Virus record (IMG/VR): IMGVR_UViG_3300009164_000028
Coordinates: 1 to 31,643 of that record
Length of the DNA: 31,643 nt
DNA from: a virus
Direction: 5' to 3' (one strand)
The position numbers and the translations under genes were made by a program. Positions within the stretch are counted from its first letter, which is position 1. The number at the start of each line of letters is the position of its first letter. This document shows, in pieces, positions 2,605-28,201 of this stretch. Under the pieces are notes generated by a model, which was not told the DNA's origin, searched no databases, and was given only the letters and a program-made list of their open reading frames with translations.

Positions 2605-3273
2605 ATGAAGATACTTATACCAACATCTTTAGAAGATGTAACTATTGAACAGTTTATTAAATACAACCGCATTACTAAACTTGAAGAAGTCGATGATGAA
2701 GTTATAATGGTTTCTATTATAGCAAACTTTTGTGATTTAAGCGTTGAAGATGTGCTTAAAATTCCTATTAAGGATATGAAGGAAATTGCTCAGCAAATTG
2801 TTGACGTTCTAAATACTGAGCCGAGGGATATACAAATTTACAAAGACTTAGGGCGCATTCCTAACTTTGATAATATAAGCGCTGGCGAATATATCGATTT
2901 GGATAAATACTTTACGGATCCTGAAAACTATCATAGGGCTATGGCGGTGCTTTACAGACCAATAAAAAAGAAATTAGGTAGTAAGTATATATTAGAAGAT
3001 TATAAGGGATCAGATGATACGTGTGAAAGTATGTTAAAACTACCTTTAGAATTGTTACTCAGTTCGATGGTTTTTTTTTCGAATTTAAACAGCGAATTAT
3101 TGAAAGCTACGAGGGACTTTTTACAACAACCGACAGCGGAGACAGATTTATTGGAGAAACATTTGGCGGAAAATGGGGCTGGTATCAATCAATTTACACA
3201 GTTGCTGGAGGAAACTATTTTGATTTTAAACGAGCAACGCAAACCAATATTCATCAATTTCTCACATATTTAG
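2605..3273 (+). CDS. Tail assembly chaperone-like protein, zero-frame product
   Basis: The zero-frame product is 222 aa. Residues 1-158 form a mostly helical acidic domain (starting MKILIPTSLEDVT) that I recognise only as typical of Bacteroidota phage structural clusters. At residues 156-158 the frame reads GTT TTT TTT across a run of nine T (3071-3079), a canonical T TTT TTT slippery heptamer. The -1 frame continues for 83 codons with convincing phage-like sequence. Short and -1 products from one gene are the hallmark of tail assembly chaperones (lambda G/GT). It is the first gene behind late promoter 1 and is followed by tail genes. The chaperone role is inferred from the frameshift and context. 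A homopolymer sequencing error would be the alternative explanation. Confidence 0.7.
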   Translation: MKILIPTSLEDVTIEQFIKYNRITKLEEVDDEVIMVSIIANFCDLSVEDVLKIPIKDMKEIAQQIVDVLNTEPRDIQIYKDLGRIPNFDNISAGEYIDLDKYFTDPENYHRAMAVLYRPIKKKLGSKYILEDYKGSDDTCESMLKLPLELLLSSMVFFSNLNSELLKATRDFLQQPTAETDLLEKHLAENGAGINQFTQLLEETILILNEQRKPIFINFSHI

Positions 3274-11909: not shown

Positions 11910-12926
11910 ATGGCAATAACTGGAACAACAGTAGACATTCGTGGTAAGGCAGTAGAACCTATCCTAGAAGAAGTATTATTCGCAAATAAAACTATTGCGG
12001 ATGGATATGTAACATTTAACACTGACATCAAAGCAGGTACTATTTTTACCGAAGCAGGTGTTGATGTAACAGCACAACTTTATACAGGTGCTGCGCTTTC
12101 ATCAAGTGGATCAATTAGCATCAATGAAAGAATTATTACTCCTACAAAATTAGAATACAAACAAACATTCTTACAAGAATCTTTAAGAGCTGCACGTTTT
12201 AACCGTACAATGGCTCCTGGCGCTTTCAACATTGAATCGGATGAGTTCGCTTCAACTGTATTAGCTATGGTAGGACCAAACGTATCTCAAGATGCTGAAT
12301 CAATCTTTTGGGGTGGTATTACTTCAGCTACTAAATCAGCAATCGCTGCTTTAACGCCAGGTGGTGCTCAAGGTTCAATAACTGCTGCAACTCAAACTGC
12401 TGTAGCTGCTTTAACTGCAGGTCAAGTTGATGGTGTTTTTGCTAAAGTTCTTTACGATCAAGCTGCTTTAGGATCTTATATTAAAGTTGGCGGAACTACA
12501 GTAACTGCTGCTAACATCGCTTCACAATTTGCGCTTATTTATGCTGCAATCCCTGCTGAATTATTGGCTGATACTGTTAGCCCTGTTGTTGTTTACGCTC
12601 CAAGAGCTTGGAAACAATTAGCAAGAATAGCTAACAACGCTGTAGGTGCTGCTCAACAAATAAACTTCTTATTTGAAAGCGCTGCTAACGATAGCAAATG
12701 TTACTACAATGGTGTTGAAATTCTTTTCGTTCCAACTCCAAACAACTTGATGGCTTACGCTCAAAGAAAAGCGGCTGTATCTTGGAACACTGACTTATTA
12801 GATGACGTTAACAGATTTGAAGTAGGTAAATTAGTAAACGATGGCGATACTCAATTCGTACGTTCAATCTATACACTTGCTGCAAACGTTGGTCAAGCTA
12901 ACAAAGGAGTTCTTTACGGAGGTTAA
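11910..12926 (+). CDS. Major capsid protein (HK97-fold)
   Basis: The 338-aa protein is the likely shell subunit. Evidence is its position behind the protease/scaffold gene, its length, and a typical capsid composition: Ala/Thr-rich, with ITPTKLEYKQTFLQESLRAA in the N-terminal third and VVYAPRAWKQLARIANNAVG near the A-domain. Codon use differs from neighbours: more C-ending codons such as AAC, TTC and ATC, as expected of the most highly expressed gene. It is preceded by an A-rich leader and followed at once by an intrinsic terminator. Confidence 0.85.
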   Translation: MAITGTTVDIRGKAVEPILEEVLFANKTIADGYVTFNTDIKAGTIFTEAGVDVTAQLYTGAALSSSGSISINERIITPTKLEYKQTFLQESLRAARFNRTMAPGAFNIESDEFASTVLAMVGPNVSQDAESIFWGGITSATKSAIAALTPGGAQGSITAATQTAVAALTAGQVDGVFAKVLYDQAALGSYIKVGGTTVTAANIASQFALIYAAIPAELLADTVSPVVVYAPRAWKQLARIANNAVGAAQQINFLFESAANDSKCYYNGVEILFVPTPNNLMAYAQRKAAVSWNTDLLDDVNRFEVGKLVNDGDTQFVRSIYTLAANVGQANKGVLYGG

Positions 12927-13562: not shown

Positions 13563-15407
13563 ATGAAGGAAAATAAACAATCTTTAGAAATTATACAGCT
13601 CGCAAATTATGTGCGGCCTGTGGTTAAGGAATCAATGACAAATGATTTCGTAATGAATGGAGCTAAAAATTCATTCTATACCTATATAATTGACCGCTAC
13701 AACGGAAGCCCTACAAATCGTGCCATTATAGATAGCTATGCCAAATTCATTTATGGCAAAGGTTTAATGAGTACACAACAAAGTCAAAAGCCATTACAGT
13801 TTGCAATGGTTAATCAAAAGCTATCTAAAAAGGATTTAAAAAATATTTGTCAGGATTACGCTTTGTTTAGTGAAGCATCAATGGAAGTGATTTATAAAAA
13901 TGGTTCTTTGGATCGAATTAAACACGTTCCTAAAAATCAAATCCTACCTAACAAAATGAATGAAGAAGGGGATATTGATACTTATTGGTATTCTTTGGAT
14001 TTTAACGAGCCAAGAAAATATAAGCCCGTTCCAATACCTGCATTCACTTATGATAAAAAGAAAAATGGCAGTTATATTTATATAATTAACAGCTATCAAG
14101 TTGGTAAGATGTACTTCACCGATCCAATTTATATGGCGGGTTTACCATACGCTGAGCTTGAAGAAGAAATAGCAAACTATTGTATTAACCATATTAAAAA
14201 TGGTTTAAGCTTCGGGCATATATTTAATATGAATCAGGGCGAACCATCGCCTGAGGTTAAGCGTACAATGAAGGATATTATTAAACGTGAAGGTCAGGGA
14301 TCAATTAACGCTGGTGTTGCTTTAATAAATTGGAATAATGGCAAAGAAACAGGAATTGATGTAACGGCTTTAGAAGTTAGCGATGCGCATCAACAATATG
14401 AGTTTTTAACTAAAGAAGCTACGCAAAAGTTACTTATTTCGCACAAAGTTACATCACCTATATTATTCGGGATTAAAGATAATACGGGAATGGGTAATAA
14501 TGCTAATGAAATGGAAAGCGCATTTAACGAACTATCGATAAATGTTATTACGCCTATGAAGGAAACGATATTAGACTGTTTAATGGAATTATTTAGTGAT
14601 AGTGGAATTACTATTGATTTAGATTTTATCCCGCTTAGAATGTCTGATTTGGCTAAAAACGATCAATCATATAATGGAGCACAAATATCATCAGCAGTTG
14701 AAATTTTAACAAGCGTAAAAGCTGGCATTTTAACAAAAGAACAAGCTATTGTATTTCTTGTACAATTTTTACAAATACCTGCTGCAGTTGCTGAAACATT
14801 ATTTACTAACAAACCTGCTGATTTACAACAATTATCAAGTGATGCTGTACATACTGATCCAATAATTGCCGATGCTTTAATTAATTTAGGCGAAATTATA
14901 AGCGATGAATGGGAATTAATTGATGAAGAAGAATATAATGAACATTCTATTAATTTATCAGAAACATCATTAAATTTAGCAACCGTAATTTCAAACATTC
15001 CTTTAGCCCCAAGTTCAATAGATAATGAATATTTTAAAGTAAGATTTGAATACGCTGGGAGTTTAAAACCGCAAAGAGAATTTTGCCAAAAAATGATAAA
15101 TGCAGGTAGGGTATATAGAAAAGAAGATATTGATTTGGCAAGTAGCCAATCTGTTAATCCTGGTTTTGGTCCTGAAGGAACTGACACTTACGATATATTA
15201 AAATATAAAGGCGGTGCTCGATGCAATCATTATTTTTTAAGAAAAGTATATTTGAAAAAAGGTAACAATTATATTACAGTTTCTGATGCTCAAAAGTTAA
15301 TTAGTGATTTAAAAGCTCAAGGCATTCAAACTGAAATACCTACAAGTGGCGAGCCATTATCTACAATCAAACCTAACAACATGCCTAACAACGGCTTTTT
15401 AAATTAA
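13563..15407 (+). CDS. Portal protein with C-terminal Mu gpF/SPP1 gp7-like minor head region
   Basis: A 614-aa protein. The first 400 residues look like a phage portal: YNGSPTNRAIIDSYAKFIYG near the N-terminus, a central alpha/beta region, and TSPILFGIKDNTGMGNNANE with AFNELSINVITPMKETILD (stem/clip helices). The last 120 residues (EFCQKMINAGRVYRKEDID, GFGPEGTDTYDILKYKGGAR, then CNHYFLRKVY) resemble the core of Mu gpF-like minor head proteins, normally a separate gene. The portal forms the DNA entry vertex; the fused part may help capsid assembly or ejection. The ATG at 13563 is chosen because of the exact promoter spacing and because a TTG start at 13539 would lie in a terminator. Confidence 0.82.
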   Translation: MKENKQSLEIIQLANYVRPVVKESMTNDFVMNGAKNSFYTYIIDRYNGSPTNRAIIDSYAKFIYGKGLMSTQQSQKPLQFAMVNQKLSKKDLKNICQDYALFSEASMEVIYKNGSLDRIKHVPKNQILPNKMNEEGDIDTYWYSLDFNEPRKYKPVPIPAFTYDKKKNGSYIYIINSYQVGKMYFTDPIYMAGLPYAELEEEIANYCINHIKNGLSFGHIFNMNQGEPSPEVKRTMKDIIKREGQGSINAGVALINWNNGKETGIDVTALEVSDAHQQYEFLTKEATQKLLISHKVTSPILFGIKDNTGMGNNANEMESAFNELSINVITPMKETILDCLMELFSDSGITIDLDFIPLRMSDLAKNDQSYNGAQISSAVEILTSVKAGILTKEQAIVFLVQFLQIPAAVAETLFTNKPADLQQLSSDAVHTDPIIADALINLGEIISDEWELIDEEEYNEHSINLSETSLNLATVISNIPLAPSSIDNEYFKVRFEYAGSLKPQREFCQKMINAGRVYRKEDIDLASSQSVNPGFGPEGTDTYDILKYKGGARCNHYFLRKVYLKKGNNYITVSDAQKLISDLKAQGIQTEIPTSGEPLSTIKPNNMPNNGFLN

Positions 15408-25030: not shown

Positions 25031-25526
25031 TTTTGTAGTTATTTAAGTTTAAACTTATGATCCAATTTAGTTGCATTTCAATTTCATCTGAATCCATAAT
25101 TCCCTTTGCGTATAATTCCCAATCTTTATGCTTTGTAACTTCTTTGTTAACATTTTCTTCAGCTGCATTGTAACAAGCTGGGTGTTTATTAAAGTCTAAT
25201 CCTTCAGAAATTAAGAAGTTATTAAATGCATAGGTATTAAATCTATTTTTAAAATCCAAATATAAGTTATCTATTGGTTTATTTAATGTTTGGCTAATTG
25301 CTTTTTGTGAAGCATCAACATCGTTGTTTAAACAGGTTAAATAATCGGTTAGCATCTTAACATATAATTTTGCAAACAATTCATTTTGATTAACTTCTTT
25401 TTTTACTGAGTTGTTTATATAATCTAAAATCAAATTAAAGGCATCAGCATCATTTTTGTTTGGTGTGAATTGTTTAGTTTGGCTAAATCGCCATTGCATT
25501 CTTTGTATTGCATCTTTTAATTTCAT
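25023..25526 (-). CDS. Replication-operon protein of unknown function
   Basis: A 167-aa helical acidic protein (MKLKDAIQRMQWRFSQTKQF), between the initiator-like and helicase-like genes and overlapping both by 4-8 bases. The position is where helicase loaders or primase-associated proteins are often encoded, but I see no P-loop or zinc site. The function is unknown; a loader/accessory role is an inference from context. Confidence 0.5.
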   Translation of the reverse strand: MKLKDAIQRMQWRFSQTKQFTPNKNDADAFNLILDYINNSVKKEVNQNELFAKLYVKMLTDYLTCLNNDVDASQKAISQTLNKPIDNLYLDFKNRFNTYAFNNFLISEGLDFNKHPACYNAAEENVNKEVTKHKDWELYAKGIMDSDEIEMQLNWIISLNLNNYKNV

Positions 25527-26182
25527 AACCTATCCTGTTTTATTTGTGGTTTAACATTAAATAAATTTTCTCGTTTTGCCCAAGTTTCTAATCTACGATC
25601 TAAGCTCCAAGTTTTTTCTAATTCAAAACGCATTTTAGATTTGCTTTGATTTGGTTCGGTCCAATAGTTATAAAATTCCTTTAGCATATTAACCTGATGT
25701 TTATTTTTATATTCTAATAAACTATCTTTAAAAATTTGGGAGCGTGCTTCTAAGCTATTTATCTTATCTTCTTTTATCTTATCTTCTCTTATGGCATCGT
25801 TTTCGCATTGCGGATTTGATGCGGTCGCATTGCGCTCGCATTCATCCTTTAGTTTACGGCGCTTTTCCCAACCTTCTTTTGCATTTTTTGAGTTTTGTTT
25901 ACTAGTATCTTCAAATTCATTTAGTTGTTCTGATAAGAATTTTATAAAAATATTACTATCTAAAACTTCAATTATTTTCTCATCGCAAAGCGAATTTAAT
26001 GCGGTCGCATTGCCAGCGCATAACTTTTGAATAGCAAGTTTTAAAGGCACATCCCCAAGTCTTGACCAATACATTGAACATAAGTCAATAAACAACCCTT
26101 TATCTTCACGAGAAAGCATTTGTATATTACCATTTTCCCATTGGTTAGGTTCAAATTTAAAGTATGGAAGTTCTTTAGCCAT
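25523..26182 (-). CDS. Replication initiator-like protein (DUF1376/DnaD-like)
   Basis: From the ATG at 26182 (MAKELPYFKFEPNQWENGNI) the protein is 219 aa. The first 110 residues (WENGNIQMLSREDKGLFIDL) are a winged-helix domain of the DUF1376/phage O-like type. A linker holds REDKIKEDKI repeats, and the C-terminus has a DnaD-like helical part. Such proteins bind the origin and recruit the helicase. Two Cys-x2-NATA-x-N-x2-Cys segments (in the domain and the linker) are encoded by GC-rich direct repeats that may be the origin itself. The upstream extension from 26236 is rejected because it overlaps the previous gene by 62 bases. Confidence 0.72.
   Translation of the reverse strand: MAKELPYFKFEPNQWENGNIQMLSREDKGLFIDLCSMYWSRLGDVPLKLAIQKLCAGNATALNSLCDEKIIEVLDSNIFIKFLSEQLNEFEDTSKQNSKNAKEGWEKRRKLKDECERNATASNPQCENDAIREDKIKEDKINSLEARSQIFKDSLLEYKNKHQVNMLKEFYNYWTEPNQSKSKMRFELEKTWSLDRRLETWAKRENLFNVKPQIKQDRL
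25755..26020. other. Candidate replication origin inside the initiator gene
   Basis: Two repeat units of about 40 bases lie at about 25802-25843 and 25982-26023. Each contains the identical 15-mer ATGCGGTCGCATTGC (25819-25833; 25999-26013), itself holding the inverted repeat ATGCG-GT-CGCAT, and a further CGCAT. They are GC-rich islands in AT-rich DNA. About 10-50 bases before the first unit, TTATCTTATCTTC-type 13-mers occur in tandem (about 25759-25790), a plausible unwinding element. The arrangement resembles lambda ori inside gene O. Confidence 0.5.
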
Positions 26183-26414
26183 TAGAAACCTCACCTTCTG
26201 TAATTTTGTTAATTTCAGTTCGCAAGGTTTTTGCAAATTTAATTGCTGTAGATTTATCTAATCTAATAAACATATCAGATTTTTCTTTATTCCAATCTCC
26301 TATACTGATATAAATTACATCTTCATTTTTAGTATAGAGTTCAATAGTTTGTTTATGTACTTCAATAAAATGAAATCCATATGCATCAATAAATTTTAAT
26401 TCAAATTTTGCCAT
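26175..26414 (-). CDS. First gene of the replication block, unknown
   Basis: A 79-aa protein (MAKFELKFIDAYGFHFIEVH) with alternating strands and a C-terminal helix rich in Lys/Glu. No motif is recognised. It is the first gene after the structured leader at 26454-26543 and overlaps the initiator gene by 8 bases, so it is co-translated with it. Confidence 0.55.
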   Translation of the reverse strand: MAKFELKFIDAYGFHFIEVHKQTIELYTKNEDVIYISIGDWNKEKSDMFIRLDKSTAIKFAKTLRTEINKITEGEVSNG

Positions 26415-26453
26415 TATAATAAAGGTTTTAAGATACCTATAAACTATTAAATT

Positions 26454-26543
26454 AAAAAAAGCTTTTCAACGCTTTCGGGGTGCATCCCTACTAACGCTAA
26501 AAAGCTATTAATGTTTTTACTTATTTGAATTATGCACAATTCT
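26454..26543 (-). ncRNA. Kissing-loop leader RNA B (replication block)
   Basis: Read on the minus strand from the expected start near 26543. Hairpin 1 (26542-26527) is GAATT-GTGCAT-AATTC. The block AAAAACATTAATAG follows (ending 26505). Hairpin 2 (26506-26460) has an outer stem AGCTTTT/AAAAGCT, a short inner stem and apical GGG-ATGCAC-CCC, followed by seven T (26460-26454). The 6-nt loops GTGCAT and ATGCAC are exact reverse complements. The same layout with different loops occurs in leader A at 28080-28166. The U-tract means hairpin 2 could terminate transcription. The leader fills most of the 196-base gap before the gene at 26414. Confidence 0.75.
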
Positions 26544-26547
26544 TTAG

Positions 26548-26577
26548 CAAATATACAAATTATTTTATTAAATCAAA
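26548..26577 (-). promoter_or_regulatory. Host-type promoter for the replication block
   Basis: On the minus strand, TTTG (26577-26574), 18 bases, TATATTTG (26555-26548), matching the Bacteroidota -33/-7 pattern. The expected start, about 12 bases from the first T of the -7 box, is 26543, immediately before hairpin 1 of leader B. Confidence 0.7.
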
Positions 26578-26610
26578 TGTTTTAATTAATAATTTTAAAT
26601 TTGTTTTTTC

Positions 26611-26940
26611 TCAGAAAGGCAAAATATTATGATTGTCAATAACTTCAATAACTTTAGCATCATGCACCGGCATATCATTAACACCTTTGTTAATTTTCCA
26701 ACCCTGAGCGTTTAAATAATACCTGCCGTTGTATTCAGATCCCCTTAAGTTGATGCCAACAGTAACTGCATCCCCTATTTTAAAAGAATCTAATAAAAAT
26801 GTTTTATCCTTAACAAAGTCAATAGGCAAATCTTGAGGATATTGCTCATTCGTTGTTACTACTAATAGTCTTTTTGTAAAGCCATTAGTTCCTACTTCTT
26901 CGGTTTGCCCGATTAATTTAACTGATCCTGTAATTTCCAT
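26611..26940 (-). CDS. SSB-like OB-fold protein (DUF3127)
   Basis: A 109-aa protein with the DUF3127 pattern: MEITGSVKLIGQTEEVGTNG, then TKRLLVVTTNEQYPQDLPID, VKDKTFLLDSFKIGDAVTV, and NLRGSEYNGRYYLNAQGWKI. This OB-fold family serves as a phage/Bacteroidota single-strand DNA-binding protein. It is the last gene of the recombination block, next to the ERF annealing gene, fitting a role in replication-linked recombination. The C-terminus is acidic and short (VIEVIDNHNILPF), with a final Phe as in many SSBs. Confidence 0.82.
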   Translation of the reverse strand: MEITGSVKLIGQTEEVGTNGFTKRLLVVTTNEQYPQDLPIDFVKDKTFLLDSFKIGDAVTVGINLRGSEYNGRYYLNAQGWKINKGVNDMPVHDAKVIEVIDNHNILPF

Positions 26941-26944
26941 AATA

Positions 26945-27391
26945 TTAAAATTTAATTGTTATCGATGATTTTCTTGGCGTTGTTGAAACTTTTGGCACAT
27001 CGTTACCATAAGCATCAATTATAGTTTGTTTTTGTGCAAGCTTAAGTAATTCAACCCTTGCATCTAAATCGGCTTTTAAAGTAGCGTATATTTCATCATC
27101 AGCATAGTTAATTGTATTGCCACCATCAACAGGGTTAAATTCAACCCCGTTAATAGTTACTTTTTCACATGGCAATAAATTTCGCATTTCACTTTCGGCA
27201 GCATCAATTACATTTTTTAGACGTACAAGTGTAGTCATAAATTCATGCTTACCTACTAAGCCATTTTCAATTACATTATCAACCATTCGTTTGCCTGTTA
27301 ATATAGCTTCTTTTTTTGTAAAAGTTGAATCGTACATTTGTAGCATTTCATCTTCTTTTAATTGTAAAAATATATTTCCTGATTGTCCCAT
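26945..27391 (-). CDS. Recombination-block protein of unknown function
   Basis: A 148-aa protein (MGQSGNIFLQLKEDEMLQMY). The C-terminal half carries EIYATLKADLDARVELLKLA and a basic end. Proteins of this layout are common beside phage SSB and annealing genes but have no assigned function that I can name. It starts with a TAATG overlap on the ERF gene and ends four bases before the SSB-like gene. Confidence 0.55.
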   Translation of the reverse strand: MGQSGNIFLQLKEDEMLQMYDSTFTKKEAILTGKRMVDNVIENGLVGKHEFMTTLVRLKNVIDAAESEMRNLLPCEKVTINGVEFNPVDGGNTINYADDEIYATLKADLDARVELLKLAQKQTIIDAYGNDVPKVSTTPRKSSITIKF

Positions 27392-27897
27392 TATGATAGT
27401 TTTGATTTAAGTTCAACAGTTAATGCAGTTATTTCTTTTGAAGGGTTGCTTATAGATTTAAACACTTTTGAAAGTTCATCTATAGTTTTGCAAGCTTTTA
27501 ATTTTGCGATGTTAATATCACCTGGAGCGCTTGCTTTATTGCCATCATCATCATCAGCGCCAACGCAAACAAATGATTGAAGCCCGTATCTTCTTGCATA
27601 AGTTATCCCTGATCCCTGAGCTTGCGCATCATTTAATTTGTTATATACTATTTCGGTAAAACTTTCAAGCATTTCGCCTGATTCGTGCATTAAAATTGTG
27701 CTTACAAAGTTCTTACCTTCAATATTTTTAATCGGCTGTAATACAACAATTCCATTATTGTTAAGTATTGGTATAACCGCTTCCCGAACTGCGTTTAAAT
27801 CAGCGTATTTTGATTTAAAAAATGGGTTAGTTGCATCCTTCTTTGGATTGCTCATTTCTGTTTGTGCTTTTAATAAAGCTGTAGCGATATTTTTCAT
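27391..27897 (-). CDS. erf: ERF-family single-strand annealing protein
   Basis: From the ATG at 27897 (MKNIATALLKAQTEM) the protein is 168 aa. It has the ERF signatures NPFFKSKYADLNAVREAV (24-41) and DAQAQGSGITYARRYGL (90-106), followed by an acidic DDDD stretch. ERF proteins (P22 Erf) anneal complementary single strands in phage recombination and genome circularisation. The longer frame from 27921 is rejected because it overlaps the upstream gene; the chosen ATG lies one base after that gene's stop (TAAGATG). Confidence 0.9.
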   Translation of the reverse strand: MKNIATALLKAQTEMSNPKKDATNPFFKSKYADLNAVREAVIPILNNNGIVVLQPIKNIEGKNFVSTILMHESGEMLESFTEIVYNKLNDAQAQGSGITYARRYGLQSFVCVGADDDDGNKASAPGDINIAKLKACKTIDELSKVFKSISNPSKEITALTVELKSKLS

Positions 27898-27898
27898 C

Positions 27899-28069
27899 TT
27901 AATAAATGTTTTTAAATTCAATTACTTTACTGTCAAATTTTTCAAAGCATTCTTTTGGAGTTAATCCGCTCCAATAAAGCTCAAATTTGTAAACTTGATA
28001 ACCTGTTTTTTTGCTATGGAATGTATATCCCATTGTTTCCCTGCAAAATTCTAAAAATGTATTTTTCAT
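27899..28069 (-). CDS. Small protein, first gene of the recombination block
   Basis: A 56-aa protein starting MKNTFLEFCRETMGYTFHSK, with an aromatic-rich centre (GYQVYKFELYWSGLTPKECF). It begins 10 bases after the U-tract of leader A and ends one base before the ERF start, so it is the first gene under leader A control. Placement and composition support a real gene; no family is recognised. Confidence 0.65.
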   Translation of the reverse strand: MKNTFLEFCRETMGYTFHSKKTGYQVYKFELYWSGLTPKECFEKFDSKVIEFKNIY

Positions 28070-28079
28070 ATTGTTAAAT

Positions 28080-28166
28080 AAAAAATCCCTGACTTAAATC
28101 CTGTAGGTCAGTACAGGCAAAGTCAGGAACTATTAATGTTTTTTTAAATATCCTGACCGATATTGT
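28080..28166 (-). ncRNA. Kissing-loop leader RNA A (recombination block)
   Basis: Minus strand. Hairpin 1 (28164-28147) is AATATC-GGTCAG-GATATT. The block AAAAACATTAATAG ends at 28130. Hairpin 2 has an outer stem CCTGACTT/AAGTCAGG (28127-28120 with 28095-28088), a 2x4 internal loop, an inner stem CCTGTA/TACAGG and apical loop CTGACC (28111-28106). Six T follow (28085-28080). Loops GGTCAG and CTGACC are exact reverse complements. GTCAGGA of hairpin 1 can also pair with TCCTGAC of the hairpin 2 outer stem, so a terminator/antiterminator switch is possible. Leader B has the same plan with other sequences. Confidence 0.8.
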
Positions 28167-28170
28167 TAAG

Positions 28171-28201
28171 CAAATATAATACTTATTTTTTAATATCCAA
28201 A
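28171..28201 (-). promoter_or_regulatory. Host-type promoter for the recombination block
   Basis: Minus strand TTTG (28201-28198), 19 bases, TATATTTG (28178-28171). It overlaps the 3' end of the gene at 28183. The predicted start near 28166 is two bases before hairpin 1 of leader A. Confidence 0.72.

Follow-up and report, generated by a model that had tools for sequence, protein, structure and literature searches.

Why should two short RNAs, each with a pair of hairpin loops that are perfect complements of one another, stand at the heads of two gene blocks in a single phage, and what might they do there? The question is raised by virus record IMGVR_UViG_3300009164_000028, of which we analysed positions 1 to 31,643 (31.6 kb, hereafter the window). 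The window encodes terminase, portal and endolysin as well as recombination and replication genes, and it is related to phages that infect Flavobacterium and further Bacteroidota. Two leader RNAs lie in it, both on the minus strand: leader A at 28080-28166 and leader B at 26454-26543. An earlier note, made from the letters of this DNA, had given both the same plan, namely a promoter TATATTTG, hairpin 1, the block AAAAACATTAATAG, hairpin 2 and a U-tract, and had described their 6-nucleotide (6-nt) loops, GGUCAG/CUGACC in A and GUGCAU/AUGCAC in B, as exact reverse complements. Direct reading confirms each of these points, and we find that the observation on the two leaders was not only correct but understated. 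As judged by sequence comparison, they belong to an RNA family that consists of a promoter element, a 5' hairpin, an A-rich linker, a terminator-like hairpin and a covarying kiss between variable loops. The parts of the two leaders are as follows.

28171-28178, minus strand: leader A, promoter element TATATTTG, from the sequence
28147-28164, minus strand: leader A, hairpin 1, AATATC-GGTCAG-GATATT, with kissing loop 1 at 28153-28158
28130-28143, minus strand: leader A, conserved single-stranded linker block AAAAACATTAATAG
28084-28131, minus strand: leader A, hairpin 2, terminator-like, with kissing loop 2 (CTGACC) at 28106-28111
28080-28085, minus strand: leader A, U-tract
26548-26555, minus strand: leader B, promoter element TATATTTG
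26527-26542, minus strand: leader B, hairpin 1, GAATT-GTGCAT-AATTC, with kissing loop 1 at 26532-26537
26505-26518, minus strand: leader B, conserved linker block AAAAACATTAATAG
26460-26506, minus strand: leader B, hairpin 2, terminator-like, with loop 2 (ATGCAC) at 26480-26485
26454-26460, minus strand: leader B, U-tract

We take TATATTTG to be a promoter element of the Bacteroidota -7 type (TAnnTTTG). It occurs 7 times in the window against 5.6 expected, so the promoter string alone is unremarkable and it is the combination that is special. The 14-nt block AAAAACATTAATAG, for its part, has two exact copies in the window and no more. Leaders A and B fold with z scores of -4.11 and -3.88, respectively, against 200 shuffles, none of which did as well in either case, and the loop-loop helix is not counted in these values. 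A plain fold of hairpin 1 of leader B puts one extra G-U pair within the 6-nt loop.

Covariation of the loop-loop helix

Loci for comparison were gathered mostly by protein, 66 through the ERF annealing protein behind leader A, 80 through the 79-amino-acid (79-aa) protein behind leader B and 23 through the SSB-like protein; ten stretches of cultured phage records were added, and further loci came from a DNA pattern or a covariance model. The longest match between the 5' and 3' zones was determined in 53 leaders, comprising the window's two and 51 chosen from the 80 loci of the 79-aa gene (the remaining 29 loci were near-copies, were cut by a contig end or had no leader directly at the gene). 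This match was at least 7 nt long in 52 of the 53, against about 8% when zones were swapped between leaders with unrelated loops and about 8% when the 3' zones were shuffled. Two of the longest matches are not the loop pair (TAAAAAA in window A and TAAAACCC in locus L234), that of window B is 6 nt, and the other 50 are 7 to 10 nt.

Alignment A1, a structure-free MAFFT alignment, holds 36 leaders picked by hand from the 51; the 15 left out (L204, L210, L221, L224, L225, L227, L228, L229, L234, L239, L245, L252, L253, L262 and L268) are mostly of other architectures. From it RNAalifold, unprompted, returned a sole consensus helix, and this was the loop-loop helix, with 7 pairs. Changes on both sides are seen in six of the seven pairs and one-sided changes in none, and among the 252 cells there is one non-pairing combination and one gap. 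The kiss appears alone here because A1 does not align the hairpin stems of one class with those of the other. When the alignment was confined to 25 class-i leaders (A2), the four named helices were 98.3% paired (hairpin-1 stem 95.2%, loop-loop helix 99.5%, terminator stem 98.9%, upper stem 98.7%), against a shuffle mean of 83.0%, and none of 500 shuffles reached any of five measures. Both-side changes in A2 affect 6 of 8 loop-loop pairs and 9 of 11 terminator-stem pairs, the latter leaving no fixed stem sequence, and pairing falls to 36 to 41% when the partners are slid by one to three columns. Outside the helices, the linker AAnAnATTA is nearly invariant in 36 homologues and the promoter-element columns are among the most conserved. 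Past the terminator stem in A2, T106 is invariant, and T107, T112 and T113 are at least 90% conserved; an 8-nt window with at least five T occurs in 50 of the 53 homology-defined leaders, A and B among them, whereas about 47% of random 32-nt stretches contain one.

A descriptor that combines the promoter, hairpin 1, an exact kiss of at least 6 nt and a terminator stem with U-tract gave 152 matches at a score of at least 52, against a single one in the reversed sequences (324 sources, 2.72 Mb, overlapping loci included). After duplicates are merged, 107 unique leaders remain; their distinct loop pairs, of 6 to 10 nt, number 65 (6 nt in 12 leaders, 7 in 26, 8 in 37, 9 in 26 and 10 in 6). At least three of the 107 are doubtful (L115, L049 and the minus-strand twin in L258); an alternative set of 131 called leaders contains double calls, and 107 is the count that we quote. 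Hairpin 1 starts 3 to 6 nt past TTTG in 82 of the 107, and the median distance from TTTG to the U-tract is 92 nt (in a set with some double calls). Median energies are -3.2 kcal/mol for hairpin 1, -18.1 for hairpin 2 and -11.1 for the kiss duplex. Earlier versions of the search were less discriminating at low scores: one descriptor scan gave no separation at scores up to 24 (3 real and 3 control matches at 24) and 20 versus 0 at 25 and above, and another gave 31 versus 0 in the reversed control at 24 and above. The first loose pattern scan yielded at least 120 stretches, nearly all of them due to chance; of 123 sources then searched, none passed the kiss test apart from the window, the two loci belonging to it and L090, a spurious stretch. 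The automatic hairpin caller erred in several loci (4 of 80 were uncalled, and 14 of 61 unique ones had a match of 5 nt or less), and the zone search was preferred.

Among the 80 loci of the 79-aa gene, many of which are near-copies, the descriptor places a leader no more than 200 nt upstream in 67. Nine of the other 13 show a loop pair by zone search, a further check or eye (L229, L234, L240, L245, L253, L255, L268, L275 and L277); the leader sits 263 to 474 nt upstream in L220, L273 and L279, and L254 is truncated at the contig end. The family was also approached from a pattern that is blind to the loops, namely that of the element in the 5' untranslated region (5'UTR) of B-type operons, which gave 42 stretches in viral contigs, 15 of them on new contigs. 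A complementary loop pair lies upstream in all 15, a set found without regard to loops: in 11 by the descriptor at 52 or above, in L342 at a score of 49.6, and in L354, L357 and L361 by eye. The last three carry exact 8-nt complements 51 to 53 nt apart, and were missed by the descriptor because their promoter letters lie outside it. The 15 include two near-identical pairs (L330/L337 and L336/L348), all four with the same loop pair.

Chance complementarity is rejected by the zone search, by RNAalifold, by the class-i shuffles and by the comparison of the descriptor with its reversed control. The earlier note had proposed a selected tertiary contact and had itself set the test, and homologues in which loop complementarity is kept do exist in large numbers. 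We conclude from the comparison that the predicted loop-loop helix, of 6 to 10 base pairs (bp), is selected and almost purely Watson-Crick.

Hairpin 2 of leader B further contains an internal loop, AGTA (26489-26492) facing GAA (26474-26476), a motif of the bulged-G/loop-E type. Under a strict rule it was found in 9 of the 131 called leaders, a double call (L313) and a probable chance case (L270) included; it was therefore rejected as a family-wide feature and is a property of some members. The same rule detects it in 6 of the 15 leaders whose kiss is 6 nt long and in none of the 31 with a 7-nt kiss. The AGUA/GAA loop of the window (26474-26492) is also seen in L313 (the leader of L136) and L330 and, by eye, in L173, L174, L273 and L333.

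Phages and genes associated with the leaders

The earlier note had the leaders heading recombination and replication blocks, and the genes agree. Leader A is followed by a 56-aa open reading frame (ORF), the ERF annealing protein and the SSB-like protein, and leader B by the 79-aa protein and a primosomal-type replication protein. No tRNA or tmRNA was found in the window.

27899-28069, minus strand: 56-aa ORF right behind leader A; 10 nt separate the U-tract and the ATG
27391-27897, minus strand: ERF-type single-stranded DNA annealing protein (Pfam ERF, 9.9e-27)
26611-26940, minus strand: DUF3127/phage SSB-like protein
26412-26450, minus strand: B-type 5'UTR element AATAGTTTATAGGTATCTTAAAACCTTTATTATAATG, behind the terminator and up to the ATG, with a 4-bp hairpin that covaries in homologues
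26175-26414, minus strand: 79-aa protein (phrog_33177), first gene behind leader B
25523-26236, minus strand: primosomal-type replication protein (phrog_9327, 2.2e-07), in the block headed by leader B

Between the terminator and the ATG of B-type operons lies a conserved element, AATAGTTTATNGGTANCTTAAAACCNTTATTATTATG, present in the window and upstream of the 79-aa gene in L200-L279. Its 4-bp hairpin covaries by eye (CGGU/ACCG, AGGU/ACCU, CCGU/ACGG, CUGU/ACAG) around a nearly fixed 8-nt loop, and it is possibly a site of translation control. The 79-aa protein itself (26175-26414) has a nearly fixed tail, LDKSTAIKFAKTLRTEINKITESE, and a variable middle. Considered as a possible phage-encoded partner of the leaders, it is modelled as beta-beta-beta-helix (mean pLDDT 79.3), and a comparison of the model with the PDB gave no match at E of 0.001 or below, so that nothing there points to an RNA-binding fold.

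Bacteroidota phage contigs contain abundant homologues, as do cultured phages of Flavobacterium, Cellulophaga and Olleya. R1, a covariance model built without the loop-loop helix, matched the cultured phages morran9-1 (E 1.3e-20), filifjonk9-1 and stinky9-1 (3.6e-20 each) and, more weakly, a second stinky9-1 leader (5.7e-05), 11b (7.5e-04) and window A (0.019); five more matches, at E 0.13 to 1.1, were counted as noise. The leaders lie at 13861-13981 in filifjonk9-1, at 14178-14299 in morran9-1 and at 13580-13700 and 12545-12652 in stinky9-1. The loop pair is GUCGUCG/CGACGAC in the second stinky9-1 leader and CGGGCAGG/CCUGCCCG in that of 11b. R1 is narrow: at E of 5 or below it did not report window B, while a close relative in L124 was matched at 1.4e-05 (G005:2828-2937), and among eight records it found nothing at E of 1 or below in those of L160 and L171, despite their descriptor leaders. 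Its 0 matches in 395 Bacteroidota genomes carry little weight, as 9 candidates were scored per listed genome with no positive control. By blastn, the morran9-1 leader with its 5'UTR found matches in 46 Flavobacterium and 6 Cellulophaga phage records, 52 in total when GenBank and RefSeq copies are taken separately, with coverage of at least 80% in 30 of them, and descriptor leaders are present in the cultured Cellulophaga phage phi18:3 (L321) and Olleya phage Harreka_1 (L322). A search of bacterial genome contigs gave no relative of the 79-aa protein and one of ERF, on a Chitinophagaceae metagenome-assembled contig in which R1 found no leader. The Baltic Flavobacterium isolates comprise 38 virulent phages and one temperate one, according to PMC7077304, in which the words "promoter," "terminator," "leader" and "noncoding" do not occur.

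The genes that the leaders head are unrelated to each other and include ERF, replication proteins, HNH and GIY-YIG endonucleases and a methyltransferase. When ten first genes were chosen, six were found to encode HNH or GIY-YIG domains with NUMOD motifs (Pfam) and a seventh (L210:7509-8216) HNH by PHROGs; the ten were picked from 16 partly for their endonuclease look, so that 7 of 10 is not a rate. The second stinky9-1 leader heads the annotated endonuclease gp34. Other headed genes encode a primase/helicase (L293), a protein of the DnaD/replisome-organizer type (L295), ERF (L258) and a methyltransferase (L315). Free-standing HNH/GIY-YIG genes with their own promoter and kissing leader are seen in L306 (12545-12652), L210, L218, L219, L237, L258 and L313, and GUCGUCG recurs in L306, L210 and L219.

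Some leaders are followed by apparently structured non-coding DNA. On the minus strand of L125, L127 and L129, a first leader precedes about 300 nt without an ATG-initiated ORF of at least 30 aa, after which comes a second leader. The L125 stretch (441 nt, including the second leader and the gene start) folds with a z score of -3.32, with 1 of 100 shuffles as good, and it matched no phage record and no Rfam family at E of 1 or below; the single Rfam hit of that search, snoR12, lies elsewhere, in L160 and on the other strand. In L160 (about 2840-3220) a leader is followed by a different stretch, of some 390 nt, likewise without an ATG-initiated ORF of 30 aa. The position of the leaders before many kinds of genes and before a non-coding stretch favours action on transcription over action on the translation of one gene.

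Variability of the loops and possible modes of action

Comparison of close relatives indicates that the leader core can be hypervariable. L127 and L129, whose flanks are 99% identical on either side, are 92 to 100% identical (in 50-nt bins) over the 700 nt before the promoter and 98 to 100% identical at +150 to +500; in the first 100 nt, which hold the leader, identity is 56 to 74% and the loop pairs are unrelated (GGCTGAACA versus GGGCGTA). L125 is a third variant of this locus, with the loop GGCCTGA. L207 and L208, with a flank identity of 99 to 100%, are 96 to 100% identical at -150 to 0 and at +100 to +900 and 64% identical in the 50-100 bin, and their loop pairs, GTGAGATTTA and GTGAGAC, have only six letters in common. 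Many close pairs keep their loops; of six with a mean flank identity of at least 0.9, three differ (all of the L125/L127/L129 family) and three share by a 5-nt rule. L159/L170 and L126/window differ in their loops together with the gene behind the leader, and these differences are plain mosaicism. The same loop pair also occurs in exchanged order: loop 1 is GTGAGAAG in L216 but CTTCTCAC in L247, with similar cases in other leaders.

Our favoured, if tentative, reading is that each leader may be a promoter-proximal transcription attenuator of this new RNA family, in which the loop-loop helix would, on the best reading, compete with or lock the terminator, possibly with specificity in trans. The layout is that of an attenuator, with a promoter and then a terminator-like hairpin and U-tract ahead of the gene. 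Hairpin 2 would act as an intrinsic terminator, and the order of folding would decide whether polymerase stops at the U-tract or reads into the operon. Were loop 1 to capture the loop-2 strand during the synthesis of hairpin 2, the terminator stem would be hard to close, its 5' arm being held in a ring, and read-through would result; were hairpin 2 the first to close, termination would release a compact RNA of about 90 nt. The loop pair would set the output of the operon, on which any free leader RNA carrying identical loops could exert feedback. A self-contained switch of this kind is favoured by the location at the extreme 5' end and by the freedom with which the loop letters are chosen. The kiss and the lower terminator stem involve separate sets of bases and might form side by side.

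Several points weigh against attenuation. The mechanism would turn solely on the order of folding. A simple terminator scan of the window lists neither hairpin, and its loop limit of 3 to 8 nt and demand for an unbroken stem may exclude them. Some U-tracts are weak; three of the 53 leaders have only four T in any 8-nt window, and that of L239 looks weak by eye. Finally, linker length and helix length are related with r = -0.42, whereas a simple spanning constraint would predict the reverse. This relation is confounded by the way in which the linker is delimited, and it was left unused as a test of cis geometry.

It is also conceivable, although in our view rather unlikely, that the leader RNA acts specifically in trans, such that the terminated RNA of about 90 nt would accumulate, kiss nascent leaders of further copies with the same loops and raise their termination. 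The P4 CI RNA and antisense attenuation in plasmids offer the comparison, and the result would be feedback on copy number during a single infection, together with the exclusion of related phages that co-infect. The unrelated loop pairs between near-identical flanks in L127/L129, with L125 as a third variant, and in part those of L207/L208, argue for this, as does the exchange of loops between phages such as those of L216 and L247. However, recombination among mosaic phages could yield such a pattern even if novelty were not selected, and a single locus family supplies all three unrelated pairs with a mean flank identity of 0.9 or above. Within one locus, none of 26 leader pairs share or complement loops, against a type-matched random mean of 2.67; this too is in its favour, but P = 0.047 is weak, and same-direction sharing alone gives P = 0.12. 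Moreover, the contig of L137 (G004; outside the 26-pair count, its leaders being in two loci) has AGTGGAACG and CTTCCAC as its loops, with 6 nt of complementarity between them, and this lowers the likelihood both of trans action and of loops that serve as identity tags. Lysogenic immunity, in addition, would be inapplicable to most of the Baltic Flavobacterium isolates, which the available part of PMC7077304 describes as virulent.

Identity tags are part of a broader proposal, which we consider unlikely, of an RNA-only specificity system of phages. Self-kissing terminator leaders would head the recombination and replication operons, with the loop pair as tag, and RNA of one tag would shut genomes of the same tag (exclusion or copy sensing), which would drive the diversification of tags, to the point that almost identical phages could bear different ones; mobile homing-endonuclease genes would carry their own tagged leader.

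Less probable still is an antiterminator like the put RNAs of phage HK022, a two-hairpin RNA that would bind its own polymerase and let it pass later terminators. Two hairpins do lie directly behind the promoter element, in two copies in the window, and the conserved linker could be a contact for polymerase or a factor; against this, hairpin 2 runs into its own U-tract, a feature not described for put in the available part of PMC9378689, the stems and loops vary and leave little fixed surface besides the linker, and Rfam gives no match. A 5'-end knot for RNA stability or translation control, in which the kissed hairpins would protect the 5' end and the U-tract would be the AU-rich region of a gene start, is similarly improbable. 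In its favour, hairpin 1 is at the expected 5' end, and 36 of 107 leaders have an ATG that opens an ORF of 40 aa or more 10 to 29 nt past the point where the U-tract starts. Against it, this distance is 40 to 59 nt in 62 of the 107, with a further conserved element intervening in the B type; a leader can have non-coding DNA behind it (where a protective knot could serve too); and protection would not explain why the loops vary.

Relation to described RNAs

Rfam 15 gave no match at the gathering threshold in the window. A search of five leader-holding loci at E of 1 or below returned one hit, BSnc120 in L215 (7234-7328, E 0.31), which overlaps the place of the second descriptor leader of that locus (7213) but, with 24.5 bits where the gathering score is 114, falls well short of the cut-off. 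A known RNA family is rejected, since no Rfam family matched a leader above its cut-off, and the view in the earlier note that the class is undescribed stands. Its likeness to HK022 put holds for the layout and for nothing beyond. The put RNAs are about 70 nt long and occur twice per HK022 genome, behind early promoters (PMC9378689); the leaders share with them a short two-hairpin RNA directly behind a phage promoter, in two copies. They differ in that the put hairpins are not described as a terminator in the part of that paper available to us (Nat Commun 2022, PMC9378689); the word "kissing" occurs nowhere in the paper.

Because their function is inferred, we class the leaders as a system among the phage leader and attenuator RNAs. 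In the immunity systems of P4 (CI RNA) and P1 (c4), short segments of the replication-operon leader pair with each other, and this is tied to premature termination. The phage leaders described here resemble them in such pairing of short leader segments, but here both partners are loops of one leader of about 90 nt, and several leaders per genome are possible. Loops that differ between close relatives, as in a P4 CI-like system, are found fully in L125/L127/L129 and in part in L207/L208, while other close pairs keep theirs. RNAI and RNAII of ColE1 control plasmid copy number, with kissing loops that set specificity; the leaders share specificity-setting loop-loop kissing before replication functions, with the difference that both loops are in the same transcript; no antisense gene was seen, although no search aimed at one was made. 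Purine riboswitches are attenuators with a tertiary loop-loop contact upstream of the terminator, as here, but the leaders have no visible conserved ligand-binding core and their loops vary freely.

We found no description of such leaders in the open literature (subscription journals and preprints were outside the scope). The available parts of a paper on structured RNAs of the human microbiome and of a review of phage small RNAs contain no mention of "kissing," nor does the latter mention "attenuation." Within the reach of these tools, the family is new with respect to Rfam and the open literature, a comparison that did not extend to HMP_4078, the phage-linked Bacteroidetes candidate of the human-microbiome paper.

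The leaders represent a strongly covarying, structured RNA family that is common in Bacteroidota phages, where it precedes recombination, replication and homing-endonuclease genes. With some 65 loop pairs on one architecture, it amounts to a natural library that could supply orthogonal RNA switches, and it makes the gene control of Bacteroidota phages directly testable. If it is true that the loops act in trans, they would constitute an RNA-based exclusion code of phages.

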